Source of the DNA: a virus
Direction: 5' to 3' (one strand)
Length of the DNA stretch: 22,599 nt
IMG/VR virus record: IMGVR_UViG_3300017735_000113
Location: 1-22,599 of that record
Made by a program: the position numbers and the translations under genes
Part shown: piece after piece, positions 7,624 to 22,599 of the stretch
How positions within the stretch are numbered: the stretch's first letter is position 1
Layout of the letters: each line of letters opens with the position of its first letter
The notes under the pieces: generated by a model
Told to the model about the DNA's origin: nothing
Seen by the model: the letters and a program-made list of their open reading frames with translations, nothing else
Database searches by the model: none

Positions 7624-8121
7624 ATGAATAAAGCGTTTTTAGCTTTTGGAATGCTACTGATGACCGCTTCTGCAGCAAGTGCAGGCGGACTTGTATCAAA
7701 ACACTCTTCTAGTGTTCAACTTACAGTTGATGCTGCCAGAACTCAGGCAACAAGAATTGGTTCCTCATTTAGTATCTCAGGAACAAACATCGGTACTACT
7801 GATGGCACCACAGCAGATGCTGTTTCTACTGGTACTATTACCAATGGAATTTATTCTCCAGGCACTATTGAAGCAGTCCAAGGAACTGCAGAATCTGCTT
7901 TCTCCTTCTCTCAGTCTTATACTCAAGGCGATGTAGTCCCAACTGCTGCTCCTACTGTAGGAGCTGTTCCTAACTTCAGTAATGTAACTTCTTATACTGC
8001 TGGTACTGCTGGAACATTAGCAGGTACAGTCACTTCTGCTGGTCTTCTAACCGTGACGGCTGGTGGTGCTGGTACTACTGCTACTGGACAATTCGTAAGC
8101 GAGATCACTGTCATTGACTAG
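7624..8121 (+). CDS. exported Gly/Thr/Ala-rich protein, virion-type, 165 aa
   Basis: The N-terminus is a clear signal peptide: MNKAFLAFGMLLMTASAASA with cleavage likely after ASA at residue 20. The mature part has low complexity and is rich in Thr, Ser, Gly and Ala, with repeated VTSAG, TVTAGG and TAGT strings and no cysteine; this points to a beta-rich surface or fibre-like protein. It resembles conserved secreted-type proteins of T4-like cyanophages. It ends in TAG (8119-8121), and the next gene starts 11 bases on with AGGAG in between, so the three proteins of this block should be co-expressed. Whether it is a virion part or acts in the host periplasm cannot be told. Confidence 0.65.
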   Translation: MNKAFLAFGMLLMTASAASAGGLVSKHSSSVQLTVDAARTQATRIGSSFSISGTNIGTTDGTTADAVSTGTITNGIYSPGTIEAVQGTAESAFSFSQSYTQGDVVPTAAPTVGAVPNFSNVTSYTAGTAGTLAGTVTSAGLLTVTAGGAGTTATGQFVSEITVID

Positions 8122-10991: not shown

Positions 10992-11042
10992 CTTCCGTGT
11001 GAAGGAAGTTAACAGAGAGGGTTACAAACCCTCTCTTTTTTT
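10992..11042 (+). ncRNA. candidate ~50-nt RNA or attenuated leader
   Basis: A sigma70 promoter is followed at once by the inverted repeat AACTTCC/GGAAGTT (10990-10996 / 11004-11010) and then by the terminator ending at 11042, with no ORF in between. The outcome would be an RNA of about 50 bases. Alternatively it is the leader of the 56-aa gene at 11175, with the terminator acting as attenuator. Which is right depends on the transcription start and on read-through. Confidence 0.4.
11014..11042 (+). terminator. strong Rho-independent terminator
   Basis: AGAGAGGGTT (11014-11023) pairs with AACCCTCTCT (11027-11036), a 10-base perfect arm, followed by seven T. Its apex GGTTACAAACC recurs in the terminator at 11358-11388. 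Confidence 0.88.
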
Positions 11043-11174
11043 GTCTTTAAGTAACAATTTAACAAATGTTAGTGAATTAACACAAAGTACTATACATAGT
11101 AGTAGAACGCAGTGAGGTGATGATATATTTTATTTGTTCTCATATATTATGTAATTAATTGTTAGGAGGATATT
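11043..11174 (+). other. AT-rich non-coding leader with palindrome TACTAT-AC-ATAGTA
   Basis: This 132-base stretch holds no ORF of note. It contains the perfect inverted repeat TACTATACATAGTA (11088-11101) and ends with AGGAGG before the next ATG. No convincing -35/-10 pair with 16-18 base spacing was found, so the promoter of the next gene is unclear. With 10937-11042 it makes up the 238-base gap between the two small genes. Confidence 0.4.
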
Positions 11175-11345
11175 ATGCACAACATTCTTTCTAGAGGTCA
11201 GCTTAGCGAGTGGAAACACTTTGAATCTACCGTCAATAGTTTAGAATCAGATTTAGATGTAATTAATGATTACTATGAATGTCTGATCGAATGCGACGAG
11301 AAGGCCTCAATCTGTAAAAGGATTTGTAAGAGGGTACTTATGTAG
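11175..11345 (+). CDS. small protein, 56 aa, cyanophage-conserved
   Basis: ATG 11175 follows a near-ideal TTAGGAGG ribosome binding site. The product, MHNILSRGQLSEWKHFESTV..., is helical, with an acidic middle (DLDVINDYYECLIECDE) and a basic C-terminus carrying four cysteines in all. I recall related proteins with NILSxGQxxEWK in other T4-like cyanophages; function is unknown. It ends in TAG and is followed 12 bases later by a strong terminator, so it is monocistronic. Confidence 0.65.
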   Translation: MHNILSRGQLSEWKHFESTVNSLESDLDVINDYYECLIECDEKASICKRICKRVLM

Positions 11346-11357
11346 TAAATATATCAT

Positions 11358-11388
11358 AAGGGGTGGTTTACAAACCTCCCCTTTTTTT
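11358..11388 (+). terminator. Rho-independent terminator after the 56-aa gene
   Basis: AAGGGGTGGTTT (11358-11369) pairs with AAACCTCCCCTT (11372-11383) with one mismatch, followed by a T-run to 11388. The apex contains TTTACAAACC, like the terminator at 11014-11042. A TATAAT (11392-11397) follows closely, at 18-19 bases from TTTACA/TTACAA, so a weak promoter may be embedded. Confidence 0.85.
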
Positions 11389-11406
11389 GTGTATAATTAG
11401 TAATAT

Positions 11407-12949: not shown

Positions 12950-13038
12950 GTGGACTATTCGTTTTTGGTTTCATCACACTAATGGTTATTGCCATGGAGA
13001 TAACATGGTCTGTAAAAAATAAAGGAAGACTAAAATGA
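12946..13038 (+). CDS. micro membrane protein, 30 aa
   Basis: The frame MSGLFVFGFITLMVIAMEIT... starts in ATGA overlap with the talC stop and ends in ATGA overlap with gnd, so the linkage supports translation. Residues 4-22 form one hydrophobic helix, followed by a basic tail (KNKGRLK). No family is recognised. It is one of several one-helix peptides in this region. Confidence 0.5.
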   Translation: MSGLFVFGFITLMVIAMEITWSVKNKGRLK

Positions 13039-13511
13039 AAGTTGGAATGATTGGTTTGGGTCGTACTGGTGAAGGTATGGCCCGCCGTATGATTGAAAAG
13101 GGAATTGAAGTTTGGGGTTATAGTAGTACTAACTACGAGAATGCCTGTGGGCAATATGAAGCAGGATATATTAGTGGATGTGTAACCTCGATAGAGTATC
13201 TTGTCCAAGCAGTTAAATCTGATGGTAAGAAGTTCACTAGTGCTGGTAGGATTCCTGGTATTTTTCAGATGACATGTCCAGAGCAAAAAGCAGAAGACAC
13301 ACTTGATGAGTTGTTACCATTACTCGAAGAGGGTGATATTATCATTGATCATAGCACCAGTGATATTTCAAAATGTCAGGAACTTCAAAAGTATTGTAGT
13401 AAGTTAGGTATCTCATATATCTTCTCTGGAGTATATGGAGATACCCATGCTGTCAATGCATGTTCTAAAATTTTCCAATCGCTATCACCAGGTAATGCCT
13501 TCCGAATTTGA
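13035..13511 (+). CDS. gnd: 6-phosphogluconate dehydrogenase-like protein, N-terminal domain only
   Basis: The start MKVGMIGLGRTGEGMARRMIEKG has the GxGxxG dinucleotide motif (G7, G9, G12). The GQYEAGYISGC segment and IIIDHSTSD (D105) follow as in phage 6PGDH, then ISYIFSGVYG. At that point the family normally continues with the GGxxG loop and then the large alpha-helical catalytic domain (GxGHxxKMxHN). Here only about 25 more residues follow, DTHAVNACSKIFQSLSPGNAFRI, and the frame stops; the product is 158 aa, about half the usual phage length (about 330 aa). No continuation is seen in the other frames, so this is a deletion, not a frameshift. It may be a decaying auxiliary gene or a free NADP-binding domain. 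It follows talC in the usual pathway order. Confidence 0.8.
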   Translation: MKVGMIGLGRTGEGMARRMIEKGIEVWGYSSTNYENACGQYEAGYISGCVTSIEYLVQAVKSDGKKFTSAGRIPGIFQMTCPEQKAEDTLDELLPLLEEGDIIIDHSTSDISKCQELQKYCSKLGISYIFSGVYGDTHAVNACSKIFQSLSPGNAFRI

Positions 13512-13680
13512 TTACGTTGAAGCACCTACAGAAGGTAAAGTTGATAAGTGGGGGTTTACTATCAAACCCACTATCAGTGATGATGAACTAATTCTTCGAT
13601 GTTTGAAGAATGCACCTTGTGGATCTGATAGAAAACAGGCAATTAAATTAATTAAAATCTACGAGGATAAAATTCAATGA
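13495..13680 (+). CDS. small hypothetical protein, 61 aa
   Basis: ATG 13495 lies just inside the 3' end of the gnd-like gene in another frame, with CCAGG upstream. The product, MPSEFDYVEAPTEGKVDKWG..., contains TISDDELILRCLKNAPCGSDRK and a helical end. It is not the missing half of gnd, having no match to the 6PGDH catalytic domain. It looks like a free-standing small protein that now abuts the deletion end. Its TGA overlaps the next ORF as ATGA. Confidence 0.55.
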   Translation: MPSEFDYVEAPTEGKVDKWGFTIKPTISDDELILRCLKNAPCGSDRKQAIKLIKIYEDKIQ

Positions 13681-13808
13681 CTCTAGCCCATGTCCTACTT
13701 TTCGGATCACTACCATTTATATGTGCCACCGCATATTTCGGGTACAGAAGAGGTGAAAATAACTATTATGAAACCGACGCCTACTCAGGAAATGGAACAG
13801 CGCATTAG
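13677..13808 (+). CDS. micro membrane protein, 43 aa
   Basis: The frame reads MTLAHVLLFGSLPFICATAY... and ends ...SGNGTAH. A single hydrophobic helix at residues 3-22 is followed by a tyrosine-rich polar tail (RRGENNYYETDAYS). The start overlaps the previous stop by ATGA. It overlaps the next gene in a different frame by 41 bases. The function is unknown, and the linkage is the chief support. Confidence 0.5.
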   Translation: MTLAHVLLFGSLPFICATAYFGYRRGENNYYETDAYSGNGTAH

Positions 13809-13992
13809 GATGCGATTTGCATTTGCTATGTCTGCTTTTGGGAGAATGTTTTTACCTCATGGTATAACACCAGAAATGAGAGCACTCTGTAATGAATGGT
13901 CTCAGATTGAAGATCAACCACCTCAAGGTGATTTATATCTGGTAGACAGATATTTTCTAGAACTTTGGAAAACTAAAAATAATAATTTTTAA
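13768..13992 (+). CDS. hypothetical protein, 74 aa
   Basis: ATG 13768 (MKPTPTQEMEQRIRMRFAFAMSAFG) follows GAGGTG about 12 bases upstream. The frame is open from 13690, but the extra residues match the shadow of the 43-aa gene. The protein is helical and soluble, with RMFLPHGITPEMRALCNEW and a C-terminal YLVDRYFLELWKTK. No family is recognised. It lies between two micro membrane proteins and probably shares their transcript. Confidence 0.55.
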   Translation: MKPTPTQEMEQRIRMRFAFAMSAFGRMFLPHGITPEMRALCNEWSQIEDQPPQGDLYLVDRYFLELWKTKNNNF

Positions 13993-14007
13993 ATTGGAAT
14001 CACGATT

Positions 14008-14094
14008 ATGGATTTATCTCATTTAGTATTAATACTAATTCCAATAATGTTTGCACTTGTTATATTTTTTGCATCAGTGCTTACAGATCAATGA
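14008..14094 (+). CDS. micro membrane protein, 28 aa
   Basis: The frame MDLSHLVLILIPIMFALVIF... is almost entirely one transmembrane helix. It overlaps the following start by ATGA (14091-14094). The upstream sequence TTGGAATCACGATT has a weak GGAA ribosome binding site. It is too short for homology, and support is by position and hydrophobic pattern only. Confidence 0.45.
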   Translation: MDLSHLVLILIPIMFALVIFFASVLTDQ

Positions 14095-14249
14095 TGTTAC
14101 AGTTTGCTAGATTCTGCGGTACAGTATTAAATAATCCATATGGATTAGGACTCATGGCATGGTGTCTAGTCTTCGTTCCTATTATTGGTATGTGGGCAGT
14201 TCACAAATACGATTGGCAACACTGGGAACCGTTCAAGAAGAAACACTAA
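14091..14249 (+). CDS. small membrane protein, 52 aa
   Basis: The frame starts MMLQFARFCGTVLNNPYGLG and then has a hydrophobic helix (LMAWCLVFVPIIGMWAV, about 21-37) and a Trp/Lys-rich cytosolic tail (KYDWQHWEPFKKKH). The positive tail suggests an N-out or loop-type insertion. The ATGA overlap with the gene before it supports translation. It closes the petE-talC-gnd transcription unit, 28 bases before the terminator/promoter element at 14278. Confidence 0.5.
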   Translation: MMLQFARFCGTVLNNPYGLGLMAWCLVFVPIIGMWAVHKYDWQHWEPFKKKH

Positions 14250-14277
14250 ATAATTTTGACCCTCCTGCATGCCATCG

Positions 14278-14310
14278 AAAGGCCCCTTGACATTTGTTGT
14301 GGGGTCTTTT
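14278..14310 (+). terminator. terminator with the next promoter's -35 in its loop
   Basis: AAAGGCCCC (14278-14286) pairs with GGGGTCTTT (14301-14309), nine pairs including one G-U, followed by TCTTTTAT. The 14-base loop begins with TTGACA, the -35 box of the promoter at 14287-14315. It ends the petE-talC unit. Confidence 0.7.
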
Positions 14311-14315
14311 ATAAT
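14287..14315 (+). promoter_or_regulatory. full-consensus sigma70 promoter, TTGACA-17-TATAAT
   Basis: TTGACA at 14287-14292, 17 bases, and TATAAT at 14310-14315 form a perfect consensus host promoter. The start is near 14322, about 16 bases ahead of ATG 14338. It would drive the DNA polymerase operon early in infection. Confidence 0.88.
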
Positions 14316-14337
14316 GGATGCATATCCCACTACGTCT

Positions 14338-14571
14338 ATGAACCTTAAAGTAATACAACTAGTTGATGGTACTCATATCATTGCTGATGTGGAACAATTA
14401 GAAGAAGAACCATCTTGTTATCTTAAGAACTGTTATCTTATCAACGAAGAAACTGATACTCTTGTAGAGTGGCCTCGATATAGTTCAGAAAGAGAAGCAC
14501 TAATCTTTTCCAATAGAATTCTAACTATATCAGAACCACACGCTGATATTGTCAAACTGATGCCTTCATGA
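14338..14571 (+). CDS. small protein upstream of polymerase, possibly Sm-like fold
   Basis: ATG 14338 (MNLKVIQLVDGTHIIADVEQLEEEPSC) is chosen because the in-frame ATG at 14314 lies in the -10 box and would not be transcribed. The 77-aa product begins with a strand pattern LKVIQLVDGTHIIADV, then CYLKNCYLI, then REALIFSNRILTISEP, similar to the Sm1/Sm2 order of LSm-type RNA-binding proteins. That is a fold-level resemblance by eye only. Similar proteins precede gp43 in other T4-like cyanophages. It ends in ATGA with gp43, so a role near polymerase translation or RNA handling is conceivable but unproven. Confidence 0.6.
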   Translation: MNLKVIQLVDGTHIIADVEQLEEEPSCYLKNCYLINEETDTLVEWPRYSSEREALIFSNRILTISEPHADIVKLMPS

Positions 14572-17057
14572 AGTTTTACACTAACGTCCAACTTGTCGGA
14601 AACACTATCCTATATCGTGGATATGAATATGGAGAACGTGTAATTCATCGTGATTCATTTTCCCCAACATTGTTCGTCACTGCTAATAAAGAAACGAAAC
14701 ATAAAACGCTGGATGGTAAAAATGTAAAACCAATTAAATTTGAATCTGTTCGTGAGGCAAGAGACTTCATGAAACGGTATGAAGGTGTACAAGACTTTGA
14801 TGTCTTTGGGTACGAAAGATTTTTGTATCAGTATATCTCGGACAAAAATCCACAGGAAGAGATGAAGTTTGATATGTCTGTAATGAATATCATGTCTCTT
14901 GATATTGAGGTTCAAGCAGAAAACGGATTCCCTAATGTTGAAGATGTTGCTGAAGAAGTTCTTTGCATTACAGTTAAAGATTTCAACTCTAAACAATTGA
15001 TTACTTGGGGTGTTCGTGATTATGATAATACTAGAAAAGATGTAAAGTATATTTACTGTAACAATGAGAAAGATCTTTTACTGAAGTTTCTTGACTATTG
15101 GGTGCAGAATACACCTGATGTTATTACTGGTTGGAATGTATATCTTTATGATATCCCATATCTTGCTCGTAGAATTGATCGCATCTTAGGAGAGAAGTAT
15201 AAAAAATCCCTTTCTCCATGGAATCTAGTCCAGGAAAGAGAAATTTATATTCAAGGTCGCAAGAATCTTGCTTATAATCTTGCAGGGGTTTCTTGTCTTG
15301 ATTATCTTGATCTATACAGAAAGTTTACTTACAGTAATCAAGAGTCTTATCGACTTGATCATATTGCTATGGTTGAACTCGGTGAACAAAAACTAGATCA
15401 CTCGGAGTTTGATACCTTCAGAGATTTCTATACAGGTAACTGGCAAAAGTTTATTGATTACAACATTCATGATGTGGAACTTGTTGACCGTATGGAAGAC
15501 AAGATGCGATTGATTGAGTTGTGTTTGACTATGGCATATGATGCACGTCAAAACTATGAGGATGTTTATTCTCAGGTAAAAACGTGGGACAATATCATTT
15601 TCAATTTCTTGAGGAAGGACAACATTGTTGTTCCTCAAAAAACTAGTCACAATAAAGATTCTGCGTACGCTGGTGCTTATGTCAAGGAACCGATTCCTGG
15701 AAGTTATGATTGGGTGGTGTCTTTTGATCTCAACTCTTTGTATCCTCATCTCATTATGCAGTACAATATCTCGCCCGAGACTTTACAGGAATCTAGACAT
15801 CCAACAGTTACAGTTGATAAGATCCTTGAGAAACAGGTCGAGATAGACGGTGAGTATGCTGTATGCGCTAATGGTGCTCAGTATCAAACTGACATCCAAG
15901 GATTTCTGCCCAAATTGATGTCCCAGATGTATAATGATCGTGTAGTATTCAAGAAAAGAATGCTTGCTGCGAAACAAGCATATGAACACAAACCAACAAA
16001 AGAATTAGAGAAAGAAATTGCACGTTGTAATAATGTGCAAATGGCAAAGAAGATCTCTTTGAACTCTGCTTATGGTGCTATCGGTAATGAATACTTCCGT
16101 TACTTTAAACTTGCCAATGCAGAAGCAATCACTTTGTCTGGTCAAGTTTCTATTCGTTGGATTGAGAATAAAATGAATGCGTACATAAATAAACTACTCT
16201 CAACCGAGGAAGTGGATTATGTCATTGCATCTGACACTGATTCAATCTATCTTAATCTTGGACCTCTTGTTACTAAATTTTTTAGTAATAAGTCTGACAA
16301 TAAAACATCAATTGTTTCCATACTTGATAAGATCTGCCAAGAGAAATTGGAACCATTCATCGATGCCTCTTATCAGGAACTCGCGACGTATGTTTCGGCA
16401 TTTGAACAAAAGATGCAAATGAAACGTGAGAACATTGCTGATCGTGGTATCTGGACTGCCAAGAAACGTTACATTCTCAATGTATGGGATAGTGAAGGTG
16501 TTCGATATGAAGAACCCAAGATGAAAATTATGGGTCTTGAAACGGCGAGATCTTCAACGCCTGCTTTCTATCGAGATAAACTTAAGAAAGCATTTACAAT
16601 TATTATTAACAAGTCAAATGACGAATTGATTAAGTTTATCAATGATGTAAAGGTAGAAACTAAAAAACGAGATATTGCCGAAATTTCATTTCCACGAGGA
16701 TTGAATGGATTATCTAAGTACAAATCTAGTTCCAATCTTTATTCTAAAGGAACTCCAATTCATGTTCGTGGTGCATTACTATATAATCATCACATCAGTA
16801 AATTAAAACTGGGTAATAAGTATCCAGTGATACAAGAGGGTGAGAAAATTAAATTTTGTTATTTGAAAAAACCAAACCCAATTGGGGAAAATGTTATTGC
16901 TTATCTTCAGACAATGCCCAAAGAATTCAATCTGGAGAAATATATTGACTACGATCTACAGTTCAATAAAAGTTTCTTGGAACCTCTGAGAAACGTTGTT
17001 GAAACTATTGGTTGGCAAGTTGAAAGAAAAGGTACACTCGAATCATTTTTTGTATAG
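14568..17057 (+). CDS. gp43: family B DNA polymerase, T4 gp43-like
   Basis: The 829-aa protein (T4: 898) has both activities. The 3'-5' exonuclease shows SLDIEV near residue 110, [10 protein letters not shown] and then a YNIHDVELV box (Exo III region). The polymerase domain has motif [19 protein letters not shown] near residue 385, motif [15 protein letters not shown] near 495, motif [11 protein letters not shown] near 553, and the thumb [10 protein letters not shown] near 632. All catalytic aspartates are present. It starts by ATGA overlap with the 77-aa gene and ends in TAG eight bases before uvsX. In T4 the gp43 mRNA is autoregulated by a leader operator; here the start is inside the previous gene, so such an operator would overlap coding sequence. 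Confidence 0.97.
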
Positions 17058-17065
17058 GAATTATT

Positions 17066-18085
17066 ATGTCATTTTTAAAATCAGTTATTTCGGAGTTGGA
17101 CAATGAGTATGCATCTATTGCCGAAGACGGCATCGCCGCTGGGGATTGTGACACGTTTGTGGATACTGGCGCTTACATCTTCAACGCTCTTGTGTCTGGC
17201 AGCATTTACGGTGGTCTCCCATCAAACAAAATTACCGCACTTGCAGGAGAATCATCAACTGGTAAAACCTTCTTCGCTCTGTCGATAGTAAAATACTTTT
17301 TGATGCAAAATCCAGATGCTCAGGTAATCTACTTTGAATCTGAATCTGCAATTACAAAAACAATGCTTTCTGATCGTGGTATTGATGTTAAACGTTTAGG
17401 TTTGGTGCCAGTTACTACAGTTCAGGAGTTCAGAACTCAATCTATCAAGATTGTGGATGAGTACACCAAACTCAAGAAGAAGGACCGCCCGCCCCTGATG
17501 TTTGTTTTAGACTCTCTTGGTATGCTCTCAACTACTAAGGAGGTTGAGGACGCTTCTGCAGGTAAGGAGACTCGTGATATGACTCGGGCTCAAGTAGTCA
17601 AATCTATTTTCAGGATTCTATCTTTGAAACTGGGTCGAGCAGGTATCCCTCTGGTGATTACTAATCACACTTATGATGTTGTTGGTTCGTATATGCCACA
17701 GAAAGAAATGGGTGGTGGTTCTGGTCTCAAGTATGCTGCATCTACTATCATCTATCTTTCAAAATCAAAGGAGAAAGATGGTACTGAAGTTGTCGGTAAC
17801 ATAATCAAATGTAAAGCATTTAAATCTAGATTCACTAAAGAGAATTCTATGGTTGCTACACGTCTTTACTATGATGAACGTGGATTAGATCGTTATTATG
17901 GGTTACTTGAGTTGGGTGAAAAGTATGGAGTTTTTGAGAAATCAGGAAACCGTTATAAGATTGGGGAGTCTAGTGTATATCCCAAATCTATTCTTGCTGA
18001 TCCAGAAAAGTATTTCACACCAGAAATTATGCAAGCCCTTGACGAAGCTGCTCAAAGGGAGTATAGTTACGGTAGCTTTGAGTGA
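17066..18085 (+). CDS. uvsX: RecA-like recombinase, T4 UvsX-like
   Basis: The protein has 339 aa. Walker A is GESSTGKT at residues 61-68; [11 protein letters not shown] near 145-150 is Walker B; the [15 protein letters not shown] loop and the [13 protein letters not shown] block follow as in T4 UvsX. It catalyses strand exchange for recombination-dependent replication and repair, loaded by UvsY (not in this window). GGAATT at 17057-17062 lies close before the ATG, giving a weak ribosome binding site. It ends in TGA two bases before the helicase ATG, so polymerase, recombinase and helicase form one operon. Confidence 0.95.
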
Positions 18086-18087
18086 CC

Positions 18088-18753
18088 ATGAAGATTGAAT
18101 CAAAAATTCTTTGTCATCTTATCAACGATGAAAAGTATTTACGAAAAACTTTGCCATTCATAAAAGACATTTATTTTGATAGTATCAGTGAAAAAATAAT
18201 CTTTCAGGAGATTGTTAATTACATGAATGAGTATGACGGTGTTCCTAATAATACTGTGCTCAAGATTGAACTTGAAAAGAGGAAAGATATATCTGAGGAG
18301 ATCTATCGAGAATCTGTTGGAATGATCGACGGTTTTTGTATAGAAAAAACTGATCCTCAATGGTTACTAGATACTACTGAGAAGTGGTGTAAAGAAAGAG
18401 CAGTGTATCTTGCTCTAATTGAGTCTGTCAAGATCGCAGATGGTCAAGACAGTACTAAGAGTCGTGATGCTATTCCATCTATTTTGCAACAAGCATTAGG
18501 AGTATCATTTGATGATCATATCGGTCATGACTACATTCAAGATGTTGAAGAACGATATGATTTCTACCATAGGTCAGAAGACAAAATTCCATTCGATCTG
18601 GATTTCTTCAACAAAATTACAAAGGGTGGTCTTCCTAACAAAACTCTCAACATTGCTCTTGCAGGCACTGGTGTGGGTAAGTCTTTGTTTATGTGTCATG
18701 TTGCCTCTGCTGCTCTTAGTCAGGGTAAAAATGTTTTGTACATTACCATGTAG
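18088..18753 (+). CDS. gp41: replicative helicase gp41, N-terminal part (ends at in-frame amber)
   Basis: ATG 18088 gives MKIESKILCHLINDEKYLRK, the family N-terminus; a GTG at 18082 lies in the UvsX stop. The fragment contains the N-terminal helical domain and the start of the RecA-like core, with Walker A AGTGVGKS at residues 192-199, and stops at TAG (18751-18753), codon 222, in the text VLYITM-stop-MAEE. In T4 gp41 this site reads YISMEMAEE, so one G-to-T change in GAG explains the stop. The rest of the helicase continues in the same frame with no gap. The fragment alone has Walker A but no Walker B and should not unwind DNA. Confidence 0.9.
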   Translation: MKIESKILCHLINDEKYLRKTLPFIKDIYFDSISEKIIFQEIVNYMNEYDGVPNNTVLKIELEKRKDISEEIYRESVGMIDGFCIEKTDPQWLLDTTEKWCKERAVYLALIESVKIADGQDSTKSRDAIPSILQQALGVSFDDHIGHDYIQDVEERYDFYHRSEDKIPFDLDFFNKITKGGLPNKTLNIALAGTGVGKSLFMCHVASAALSQGKNVLYITM

Positions 18754-19458
18754 ATGGCGGAAGAAAAGATCGCTGAAAGAATAGACTCAAATTTATTGAA
18801 TGTAAATATAAAAGATCTTGTTGATCTACCAAAACAAATGTTTACAAGTAAGGTGGAGAAAATTTCAAAGAAGACACAAGGAAAACTTATCATTAAAGAA
18901 TATCCAACTGCATCTGCTCACGTTGGTCATTTTAAAGCATTACTTAACGAACTAAGTCTAAAGAAAAGTTTTGCTCCTGATATTATTTTTATAGATTATC
19001 TTAATATTTGTTCTTCTAGTAGACTCAAAGGTGCCATTGTTAACTCATATACTTTTGTAAAATCTATTGCTGAAGAGATCAGGGGTCTTGCTGTGGAATA
19101 TAATGTTCCTATTGTGTCTGCAACACAAACTACTCGTTCTGGTTATGGTAATTCCGATGTAGAAATTACAGATACATCAGAATCTTTTGGTCTTCCTGCT
19201 ACCGCTGACTTTATGTTTGCTCTTATCTCGACAGAAGAATTGGAAGAGATGAATCAGATTATGGTCAAGCAGTTGAAGAATAGATACAATGATGGAAACG
19301 TCAACAAAAGATTTGTCATTGGTATTGACAGATCGAAGATGAAGTTGTATAATGTAGAGGCAAGTGCCCAGGGTAACATCATTGATGCAGGTAGAGACTC
19401 TGATGTGGTGGAATCCTTGGACAATAAAATTCGTAACTTTGAAGGTTTTACCGTATGA
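18754..19458 (+). CDS. gp41: replicative helicase gp41, C-terminal part (after the amber)
   Basis: The frame continues straight after TAG with MAEEKIAERIDSNLLNVNIK, the expected helicase sequence. It holds Walker B DIIFIDYLN (D at residue 81 of this piece), the PIVSATQTTRSGY motif with the sensor glutamine, and a KNRYND segment likely to bear the arginine finger. Total length with the first part is 456 codons, near T4 gp41 (475 aa). The frame is otherwise intact, with no sign of decay, which argues that the whole protein is made or was until recently. An ATG follows the TAG directly (ATGTAGATG), so reinitiation could make this piece as a separate subunit. It ends in ATGA with mazG. Confidence 0.9.
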   Translation: MAEEKIAERIDSNLLNVNIKDLVDLPKQMFTSKVEKISKKTQGKLIIKEYPTASAHVGHFKALLNELSLKKSFAPDIIFIDYLNICSSSRLKGAIVNSYTFVKSIAEEIRGLAVEYNVPIVSATQTTRSGYGNSDVEITDTSESFGLPATADFMFALISTEELEEMNQIMVKQLKNRYNDGNVNKRFVIGIDRSKMKLYNVEASAQGNIIDAGRDSDVVESLDNKIRNFEGFTV

Positions 19459-19859
19459 CCGTAAACACTGATGCATATCTTGAGTTTGTGAATGCCGTCA
19501 CATCTCAATCTAGTAAAGATGCTGATGCATTTGAGTATCGTATTCAAGAACTTCGTGGAGAAGGATTTGAAACGCATCGACTTCTAACTGCTGCTGTAGG
19601 AATGTCTGCTGAGGCAGGTGAGTTTACTGAAGTTGTAAAGAAGATTATCTTCCAAGGTAAACCAGTAAACGAAGAGAACATGTTCCATCTTAAACGTGAA
19701 CTTGGAGACATCATGTGGTACGTTGCACAAGCATGTATGGGTCTCAATGTTTCTCTTGATGAAGTGATTGAGATGAACGTGGATAAACTCAAAGCACGTT
19801 ATCCTGGTGGTGAGTTTGATGTTCACAAATCTGAGAATCGTCAGGAAGGTGATGTCTGA
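19455..19859 (+). CDS. mazG: MazG nucleotide pyrophosphohydrolase
   Basis: The protein has 134 aa. The MazG metal-binding pattern is complete: E53-A-G-E56 in MSAEAGEFTEVVKK and E82-L-G-D85 in RELGDIMWYVAQ. The family hydrolyses nucleoside triphosphates to monophosphates and pyrophosphate. Cyanophage MazG was first proposed to lower host (p)ppGpp but has been shown to prefer dGTP/dCTP-type substrates, pointing to recycling of host DNA nucleotides. It follows the helicase by ATGA and shares a base with the next start (TGATG), so it is expressed with the replication operon. Confidence 0.92.
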   Translation: MTVNTDAYLEFVNAVTSQSSKDADAFEYRIQELRGEGFETHRLLTAAVGMSAEAGEFTEVVKKIIFQGKPVNEENMFHLKRELGDIMWYVAQACMGLNVSLDEVIEMNVDKLKARYPGGEFDVHKSENRQEGDV

Positions 19860-19978
19860 TGGATGGTGCAGTATACGCTTGGAATTCTATGTCCTATGGA
19901 GAAGGATTTCTTTTCTCCGTCTGGATTTTAGGAATGTATTTTATCAAACTGAAAATGGATCAAAGGTTTGGACGATGA
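19859..19978 (+). CDS. micro membrane protein, 39 aa
   Basis: The frame MDGAVYAWNSMSYGEGFLFS... has one hydrophobic segment (GFLFSVWILGMYFI, 16-29) and a basic tail LKMDQRFGR. It starts at TGATG with the MazG stop and ends at ATGA with the next gene. No family is recognised; the two-sided overlap is the main support. Confidence 0.5.
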   Translation: MDGAVYAWNSMSYGEGFLFSVWILGMYFIKLKMDQRFGR

Positions 19979-20133
19979 GTAAAAAATCATTTAAGAATAA
20001 GCATCAACAGCAATGGGAGTGGGAAGAAACTCCTGAGACTAAGGCAGCAATTGCTGCTCTTCATGAAGGTATTCGTCAACGTAAACTAAAATCCGACGAC
20101 GACAAATTTAACTACGATACATCAGGAAAATGA
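19975..20133 (+). CDS. small hydrophilic protein, 52 aa
   Basis: The frame MSKKSFKNKHQQQWEWEETP... has a basic start, an acidic Trp-rich patch, a helical centre (TKAAIAALHEGIRQRKLKS) and a polar tail (DDDKFNYDTSGK). It is charged throughout, with no membrane segment. It is ATGA-coupled on both sides. I do not recognise a function. Confidence 0.55.
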   Translation: MSKKSFKNKHQQQWEWEETPETKAAIAALHEGIRQRKLKSDDDKFNYDTSGK

Positions 20134-20363
20134 AATTACTTACACTAGACGACTATCAAAGAGCAGGTGAAACATTCTGGCCTAAGTATTGGTATGTTTC
20201 TAAAGAACTTGGTGAAGGTGCCAAGACAGAAGACATCTTAAAAGTTATGGAAGCTGTTGGTGGTGTTGCTCTTAAATTGGCACTGGAAGAGAAATCAGCA
20301 GGTCCATTCGGGTTTAATAAAACAAAAGAGGGGGAAGGTGACCTGAATGACAGCATTAATTGA
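20130..20363 (+). CDS. hypothetical protein, 77 aa
   Basis: The frame MKLLTLDDYQRAGETFWPKY... is soluble and helical, with KTEDILKVMEAVGGVALKLALEEKSAGPFGF in the centre. Similar small proteins near mazG are known to me from T4-like cyanophages but without a function. It starts by ATGA and overlaps the next gene by 17 bases. Confidence 0.6.
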   Translation: MKLLTLDDYQRAGETFWPKYWYVSKELGEGAKTEDILKVMEAVGGVALKLALEEKSAGPFGFNKTKEGEGDLNDSIN

Positions 20364-20556
20364 ACCTACAGATCCACGGTATTTTAGATGTACGTCTGAT
20401 GGATCTTATGACCGACATACATACAAAGTTGTCTTTAATAATAGTAAAGCACTAAAGTTTGATAGTTGGGAAGAAGCACAGGCCTGTTGGTTTGAGAAGA
20501 AAGCACTAGGACAGTTTAAAACTATTGAAGTTCTAGATAGAAAAAGAATGCCATGA
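20347..20556 (+). CDS. small hypothetical protein, 69 aa
   Basis: The start ATG 20347 is preceded by GGGGGAAGGTG, a good ribosome binding site inside the previous gene. The product (MTALIEPTDPRYFRCTSDG...) looks like a compact beta-rich domain: YKVVFNNSKALKFDSWEEAQACWF, KALGQFKTIEVLD. The KxDSWEEAQACWF helix is conserved-looking. No family is assigned. Its TGA overlaps the following ORF as ATGA. Confidence 0.55.
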   Translation: MTALIEPTDPRYFRCTSDGSYDRHTYKVVFNNSKALKFDSWEEAQACWFEKKALGQFKTIEVLDRKRMP

Positions 20557-20666
20557 ATTCCTGGGCATTACTCTACGATATATTAAATGGTACTTTCGAT
20601 GAAGTATATCCTATCGTTGAAGAAACTGAAGAAGATGTAATTGAATCTGAAAATGAATCTAAATAG
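20553..20666 (+). CDS. acidic micro-protein, 37 aa
   Basis: The frame MNSWALLYDILNGTFDEVYP... ends in a very acidic tail (IVEETEEDVIESENESK). It starts by ATGA overlap with the 69-aa gene and its TAG is the first base pair region of the terminator stem at 20665. It is the last gene of the polymerase operon. Confidence 0.5.
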   Translation: MNSWALLYDILNGTFDEVYPIVEETEEDVIESENESK

Positions 20667-20688
20667 AGGGTAGGAACCCTCTTTTTTT
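20665..20688 (+). terminator. Rho-independent terminator of the polymerase operon
   Basis: AGAGGGT (20665-20671) pairs with ACCCTCT (20676-20682) around an AGGA loop, followed by seven T. It ends one base before the ATG of the next gene. A CTAAATA late-like motif (20658-20664) overlaps its left edge. Confidence 0.85.
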
Positions 20689-20689
20689 A

Positions 20690-22021
20690 ATGGCTTTTGA
20701 ACCATCGGAAGGATTATATGCAGGATTGTCATTTGTTTCTACTAGTGATTTAAATGCTGCAAAATCGGATATCAATAAATTTAAAGATTTATATTTTGTT
20801 GCCCTAGAAACTCTTAAGACTAGTAACAAGATTAAAGATGGTGCTGGCAATCAAACAAGAAATGGATTAATTAAAGAAATAGATTTAACAGATAATAAAG
20901 ATCCTAAAAAAGAGAAAGAAATATACAGTGATTTAGCTGGTGTCATAGGTGCTGTTTTAGCAACTAGAACTAAAGCTCTAAGAAATAAAATACCTACAGC
21001 AGTTTATCTAACTGGTAATAAATGGCATTCTGATGTAGAAAAATTTAAAATTAATGCTTATGGTATGGCTGATTATAATTCATCTGATTTAATTTTAAAA
21101 TCGGATGATGTTGGTGTAAGAAAACATTATACAGGTATCTCTTTAAAGAAAAAAAGAAAGTTGCAGAATGAAAGTCCTACAATGATTAATAATGCTTTCT
21201 CAAAATTTATTGAAGGAAATGATTTTGTAGATGTCAGAAAAGGATTGGATGAACATCGTAAGAAATTTTTTGCTGGAGTAATAAAAGAAGCTGCTCAACC
21301 AGGTAATCCTCTTGCATTGTATGCAAGGGCAAATAAATCAATAAGTTCTTTAGATCCAGATAAACTATCTGACGCTGAAATTTTATGGGACACTAAAATT
21401 GTTAGAATGAAAAATGGTAAACCAAAAAGAGAAGCTCTAATTAATTTAAAGTCGGAATCTGATCTTGCAGATTTAACTGGAGATGTATTAAATCCAAAAG
21501 TTAAAGATCAATTTAGAAAATTTGTAAACGAAAAGTTGGGTAGCACTACATCAAAATTAAATCCTTTATTTCAAGGGTTCCTTGATATTATGAATAGGAA
21601 AGATGTTAAAGATAAATTAGCTAATGGATTGTTGAATAGAGTATTGAAACTTAAACTTTTAGATGAACTTAGTACTTGGAAATCAAATCAATTTGATTTT
21701 TATTTGATAGAAGGTGTTGGAGATTATAACCCAACCAATCAAACTGCAACTATCTCTAATGCTTCTGTTTATGATATTCATAGTGTGATAGTTGAGATTG
21801 CACGGATGACAAAGGAACCAGCACTCATGGAACTTGATAATGATTCATTGAAACCAGGTAAAGCAAAAGTAAAATTTACTTTAAAAAAAGGAAAACTTCC
21901 TATATTAAAAATTGAATTGCGATATAAAGGATCATTTACTGCGATGCCTCAATTTTTTGCAACAATGACAGATGAATTTAAAGAGATCTTACATGATGCT
22001 GGTGATATCACCAGGATGTAG
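20690..22021 (+). CDS. hypothetical protein, possible PD-(D/E)XK-type nuclease, 443 aa
   Basis: The protein starts MAFEPSEGLYAGLSFVSTSD. Residues 75-155 have an order seen in restriction-type nucleases: a helix with acidic residues (KEKEIYSDLAGVIGAVLATRT), strand and Trp (AVYLTGNKWHSDV), then YNSSDLIL with D133, and YTGISLKKKRK with a Ser-Leu-Lys in place of the usual E/Q-x-K. The remainder is helical and Lys-rich, with no second recognisable domain. This reading is by eye and tentative; a virion or DNA-binding role is also possible. The gene is richer in A/T codons (TTA, AAA, AAT) than the neighbouring replication genes. It begins one base after a terminator and has no host-type promoter of its own that I can find, which hints at late acquisition or late transcription. 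Confidence 0.5.
   Translation: MAFEPSEGLYAGLSFVSTSDLNAAKSDINKFKDLYFVALETLKTSNKIKDGAGNQTRNGLIKEIDLTDNKDPKKEKEIYSDLAGVIGAVLATRTKALRNKIPTAVYLTGNKWHSDVEKFKINAYGMADYNSSDLILKSDDVGVRKHYTGISLKKKRKLQNESPTMINNAFSKFIEGNDFVDVRKGLDEHRKKFFAGVIKEAAQPGNPLALYARANKSISSLDPDKLSDAEILWDTKIVRMKNGKPKREALINLKSESDLADLTGDVLNPKVKDQFRKFVNEKLGSTTSKLNPLFQGFLDIMNRKDVKDKLANGLLNRVLKLKLLDELSTWKSNQFDFYLIEGVGDYNPTNQTATISNASVYDIHSVIVEIARMTKEPALMELDNDSLKPGKAKVKFTLKKGKLPILKIELRYKGSFTAMPQFFATMTDEFKEILHDAGDITRM
21999..22014. repeat. perfect 16-base palindrome CTGGTGATATCACCAG
   Basis: The palindrome lies within the last codons of the 443-aa gene. Its left arm CTGGTG can alternatively pair with CACCAG at 22033-22038, which is followed by TTTTT, so it may be part of a terminator-like structure ahead of the promoter at 22025. 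Confidence 0.55.
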
Positions 22022-22024
22022 GGC

Positions 22025-22053
22025 TTGACACCCACCAGTTTTTCTAGTATAAT
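22025..22053 (+). promoter_or_regulatory. full-consensus sigma70 promoter, TTGACA-17-TATAAT
   Basis: TTGACA at 22025-22030 and TATAAT at 22048-22053, with 17 bases between. The ATG of the next gene is at 22060, only six bases after the -10 box, so the transcript is expected to be leaderless or nearly so. The spacer contains CCACCAGTTTTT, the right arm and T-run of a possible terminator. Confidence 0.88.
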
Positions 22054-22059
22054 ACAGAC

Positions 22060-22599
22060 ATGGCTAAGAACACACACCTAGAACACCTTGAAGACGATAT
22101 CCTCAATCTTGGATCTGCAGGGGGGAAGTCTTCTATTGCTTTCTTAAAATCTCTGGGTGCTATGTTAACTCAGGGAGACAAGAATAAATCTGTCAATATT
22201 ACTACTAAATGGGATGGAGCTCCCGCTGTAATTTGTGGAATTGAACCAGTATCAGGAATGTTTTTCGTTGGTAACAAATCTGTATTTGCAAAAACTGAAC
22301 CAAAGCTTTGTTTTTCGACAGAAGATGTCGATGACTTCTATCCTACCAGTGGACTCAATCAAATTCTTAAGGACTGTTTGAAATATCTTTCACAGTTAAA
22401 TATAGATGGTGTAATACAAGGCGATCTTTTATTCACTGAGAATACAAAAACAGTTACTAACGTTGGTGGAAAACGATGTGTAACATTTACTCCTAATACA
22501 ATTACCTATGCGATACCGTTGGATACAGACCTTGGTCAACGTGTTAATTCTTCTAAGATTGGCATTGTGTTCCATACCACTTATTCTGGCTCTACTATG
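22060..22599 (+). CDS. ligase-fold (KxDG) nucleotidyltransferase-like protein, DUF6267-like, partial
   Basis: The 180 residues present run to the right edge. TTKWDGAPAV at 48-57 fits motif I (KxDG) of the DNA/RNA ligase and capping-enzyme superfamily, with K50 the presumed AMP-accepting lysine. FFVGNKSVFA at 68-77 resembles the following strand pair, and IDGVIQGDLLF at 115-125 resembles motif III with an acidic residue. Motifs IV and V would lie outside the window. I associate this text with the cyanophage family DUF6267, whose biochemical role is not established to my knowledge. Ligation of nicks, RNA repair or nucleotidylation of another target are all possible. It has its own perfect early promoter, apart from the polymerase operon. 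Confidence 0.6.
   Translation, partial: MAKNTHLEHLEDDILNLGSAGGKSSIAFLKSLGAMLTQGDKNKSVNITTKWDGAPAVICGIEPVSGMFFVGNKSVFAKTEPKLCFSTEDVDDFYPTSGLNQILKDCLKYLSQLNIDGVIQGDLLFTENTKTVTNVGGKRCVTFTPNTITYAIPLDTDLGQRVNSSKIGIVFHTTYSGSTM

Follow-up and report, generated by a model that had tools for sequence, protein, structure and literature searches.

Gp41 of phage T4 (PDB 8dtp; the E227Q mutant is in 8g0z and 8gao) carries the motif YI(S/T)M-x-MAEE, which includes Glu227, and the T4 primosome study describes gp41 E227Q as an inactive mutant that does not hydrolyze ATP (PMC10359460). In cyanophages, the corresponding genes, described as gp41 or DNA primase-helicase (P-RSM6, syn9, ACG-2014d), have approximately 73-74% DNA identity with the gene considered here over 72-73% of its length. 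The same motif is found in this gene, with TAG in the place of Glu227.

The gene lies in a virus fragment of 22,599 bases (the window, that is, the whole analyzed stretch of DNA), where the order polymerase-uvsX-gp41-mazG is that of cyanophage P-RSM6, the latter having one more ORF between uvsX and gp41, absent from the window. All four genes are on the plus strand. The intact DNA polymerase gene gp43 (14568..17057, terminated by TAG) is 66% identical to the polymerase of Synechococcus phage S-CAM4 over 100% of the length; it is followed by intact uvsX (17066..18085, assigned by Pfam RecA and the P-RSM6 order), by gp41, and by an intact mazG-type gene (19455..19859), the 3' part of which falls into a strain-variable block (see below). 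The window also carries a gnd-like gene and genes that we take, from our own reading of the sequence, to be tal and plastocyanin-like. Given the P-RSM6 gene order, the S-CAM4-like polymerase and the tal, gnd-like and plastocyanin-like genes, the fragment most likely originates from a cyanophage-like T4-type myovirus.

Several other features of this region were observed. The 6-phosphogluconate dehydrogenase-like gene (13035-13511) is limited to the NAD-binding domain and has a 158-aa product; we considered a truncated or broken gnd and rejected it, as the same 158-aa gene is kept in many cyanophages (up to 97.5% identity in Synechococcus phages, with a family of its own, PHROG 3646), and thus it is a real short gene. 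The intergenic segment 10511-10565, just before a short ORF, consists of GTTCATCCCCCGAAAGGAGGACGCAAGTAAGTCGCGGAACGGAGCCGTTCATCCC with GTTCATCCC at each end; the Rfam search produced no match, for this element included. Terminator-like hairpins followed by T runs are found near short ORFs at 11013-11043 (GAGAGGG..CCCTCTC) and 11360-11391 (AGGGGTGG..CCTCCCCT). In three related loci gp43 is broken at the same place, approximately residue 470-479 (L044:4532-4688, L114:3861-4497, L126:8936-8300), the two matching parts being in different frames and separated by about 150-640 bases, possibly by an intron, a split gene or a homing element.

Translation of 18088-19458 yields 456 codons with a single internal stop, TAG in codon 222 (18751..18753), in the context TACATTACCATG-TAG-ATGGCGGAAGAA. 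The N-terminal part (18088..18750, 221 codons) contains the Walker A motif GTGVGKS in approximately codons 193-199, with T194, G195, G197, K198 and S199 invariant in relatives, and matches positions 161-389 of the profile of PHROG 19, DnaB-like replicative helicase (E=6e-59), while the C-terminal part (18754..19458, 234 codons and TGA; also recognized by Pfam DnaB_C) matches positions 391-589 (E=2e-63). Since the two matches run from 161 to 389 and then from 391 to 589, exactly one residue is missing. The read-through product can be aligned with T4 gp41 (8dtp) over nearly the whole length (E=9e-102), with Glu opposite the stop, and both 8dtp and PHROG 19 give the full-length T4-type match if the halves are combined. 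This agrees with the original prediction, made from the window alone, of a T4-like gp41 gene with one in-frame amber codon and both flanks intact in the same frame. According to the PDB alignments, where wild-type T4 gp41 has Glu in the column of codon 222 and 8g0z has Gln, this codon corresponds to Glu227, the catalytic glutamate of the ATPase. The prediction had placed the stop between the two Walker motifs; this needs correcting in that the TAG does more than separate them, as it sits on the catalytic glutamate itself. This glutamate of the MEM motif is thus absent from the window record.

A contig belonging to a second IMG/VR dataset (L132) matches the window from end to end at 13371-22599, with 99.8% identity, 17 mismatches and no gaps, and has a Glu codon in position 222. 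Sixteen of the 17 mismatches fall within 19658-19943 (probability about 1e-23 if they were evenly spread), and the sole mismatch in the other approximately 8.9 kb is position 18751. The stop is thus not a feature of the lineage. The block 19658-19943 comprises the 3' end of the mazG-type gene with the adjoining downstream sequence, three of the four checked mazG differences are silent, and the block looks like a local recombination or an ordinary strain-variable segment. The window (22599 bases) and this contig (9229) end at the identical base though they are separate records, which suggests a shared assembly break point, caused by strain branching or a repeat. The same population is represented by three more contigs (L140, L141, L142), each of which, aligned to the initial 3-9 kb of the window, shows one to four differences; these are all silent except one Asn vs Asp. 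This near-identity indicates that the window record is otherwise accurate in its first 3-9 kb, and, since the checked differences from same-population contigs are mostly silent, the stop contrasts with the natural variation.

The comparison with related phages gave a similar result. Codon 222 is Glu in all 138 related loci that cover the site (GAA in 79, GAG in 59), and none has TAG; as the search patterns used to collect the relatives left this codon unspecified, the count is free of selection bias. Together with the 8dtp alignment it bears out the original expectation of Glu in the stop position, and it lends no support to a split or suppressed helicase of the lineage; in particular, a programmed split is not kept among near relatives. 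No TAG-bearing copy was revealed when 2.9 million viral contigs were scanned for the exact or a degenerate sequence, though near-identical records may have escaped these searches, and no match to the site with any codon was found in the scanned bacterial and archaeal genome contigs. Among the 138 loci, gp41 is also broken by TAA in codon 28 (L127) and by a frame change (L062:7367-8705); such scattered breaks, about 1% per contig, are what one would expect if metagenome assemblies contain occasional errors and, rarely, dead alleles. Approximately 4.4% of all single-base changes in the gp41 gene of the window create a stop.

Both halves of gp41 are under strong purifying selection, with no decay. 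Compared with a relative having 89% DNA identity (L139), dN/dS is 0.10 in the N-terminal part and 0.06 in the C-terminal part, the reference value for the intact uvsX and polymerase genes in the same comparison being 0.06, and in 91 columns invariant in other relatives the window differs only in codon 222 and one conservative Leu-to-Ile replacement. The stop is therefore either recent or not real. A lineage losing gp41, with another helicase replacing it, would account for an essential gene that carries a nonsense codon, and the remainder of the genome lies outside the window; however, the low dN/dS in both halves, the lack of further decay and the intact copy in the near-identical contig make this very unlikely, and pseudogene decay as such is ruled out by dN/dS and the invariant columns.

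The use of TAG elsewhere in the window was also considered. No internal TAG occurs in the polymerase, uvsX, clamp, clamp-loader or mazG genes. The TAG of the polymerase (17055-17057) is a normal terminator, as there is no conserved extension after it and the next in-frame stop is six codons on. The original prediction had listed several ordinary TAG terminators; two of these, in the polymerase and in the gene at 7624-8121, are real, whereas the ORFs ending in TAG at 11343, 13806 and 20664, having only 59, 45 and 41 codons, are weaker evidence, and a better example is the TAG at 22019-22021, which ends a 443-aa ORF. Its claim that general reassignment is unlikely holds, and general TAG recoding is ruled out by the clean conserved genes and the TAG-terminated polymerase.

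Amber suppression or read-through, in which a suppressor tRNA of the host or the phage would fill the TAG and yield full-length gp41, is consistent with the intact and selected frame downstream of the stop, and the tRNA could lie elsewhere, since the window covers 22.6 kb compared to approximately 170-190 kb in related cyanophages. Gln is a common outcome of amber suppression. Insertion of Gln here would make an inactive helicase, Gln in place of Glu227 being ATPase-dead in T4 gp41. In general, a stop on a catalytic residue allows read-through hypotheses to be judged easily. A suppressor inserting Glu would be required, as Gln abolishes ATP hydrolysis (PMC10359460). The search for a suppressor, proposed in the original prediction, produced no tRNA genes in the window, no tRNA with the CUA anticodon in 41 related loci, and no tRNA of any kind in contigs of this population that extend beyond the window by up to 7 kb on its upstream side. 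Given also that the polymerase and other genes end normally in TAG, and that neither the near-identical contig nor any relative has the stop, suppression is very unlikely. A minority strain with a true amber codon and a Glu-inserting suppressor tRNA, from the host or from a gene lying elsewhere, that would act as a conditional replication switch, is extremely improbable.

The ATG at 18754, directly after the TAG, could in principle allow reinitiation and a two-piece helicase made of N- and C-terminal polypeptides, as had also been proposed. However, this codon encodes the conserved Met of the MEMAEE motif, invariant in relatives; no Shine-Dalgarno-like sequence is present upstream, and it is not evident as a start codon. 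The catalytic Glu would be missing from both pieces, and among DnaB-type helicases neither a Gln version nor two chains without Glu is expected to unwind DNA. With none of the 138 relatives, nor the near-identical contig, having a stop in codon 222, we regard reinitiation as exceedingly doubtful.

The window record contains a stop that an otherwise identical contig and all relatives lack, in a gene with no sign of decay. The TAG is almost certainly a private G-to-T change in one metagenomic contig, which we infer to be either a base-call error or a rare dead allele, not something tolerated. On this reading, the variant sits in a T4-type gp41 gene that is otherwise intact and unremarkable, and it has no programmed function. 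The consensus base may be wrong, owing to damage in the library or, where coverage was low, to a read error; alternatively, the contig may have caught a rare nonsense allele, in which case the helicase of that virion would be non-functional. In our judgement, a consensus error is slightly favoured and probable, and a true rare lethal allele is a possibility of some weight. As several reads normally contribute to a metagenome consensus, and the site is covered by just a single further contig of this population, a real minority allele has to be considered. A search of the literature on G-to-T library artefacts found nothing that directly concerns metagenome consensus errors. Of the options in the original prediction, a base-call error or a defective genome is thus the one supported by the near-identical contig and the relatives. 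More generally, before a lone in-frame stop in a metagenomic contig is read as recoding or as a split gene, it should be compared with contigs from the same population.

Stop-codon-reassigned phages, crAss-like and others (PMC11210395, PMC10607447), resemble the window in having an in-frame TAG in a conserved gene, and recoded phages such as phAss-1 have TAG in many ORFs (41 in phAss-1). The window differs from recoded phages: no suppressor tRNA was found in the sequences scanned, there is one in-frame TAG only, and TAG is the normal terminator. The TAG in gp41 is not evidence for a new split, suppressed or recoded helicase.
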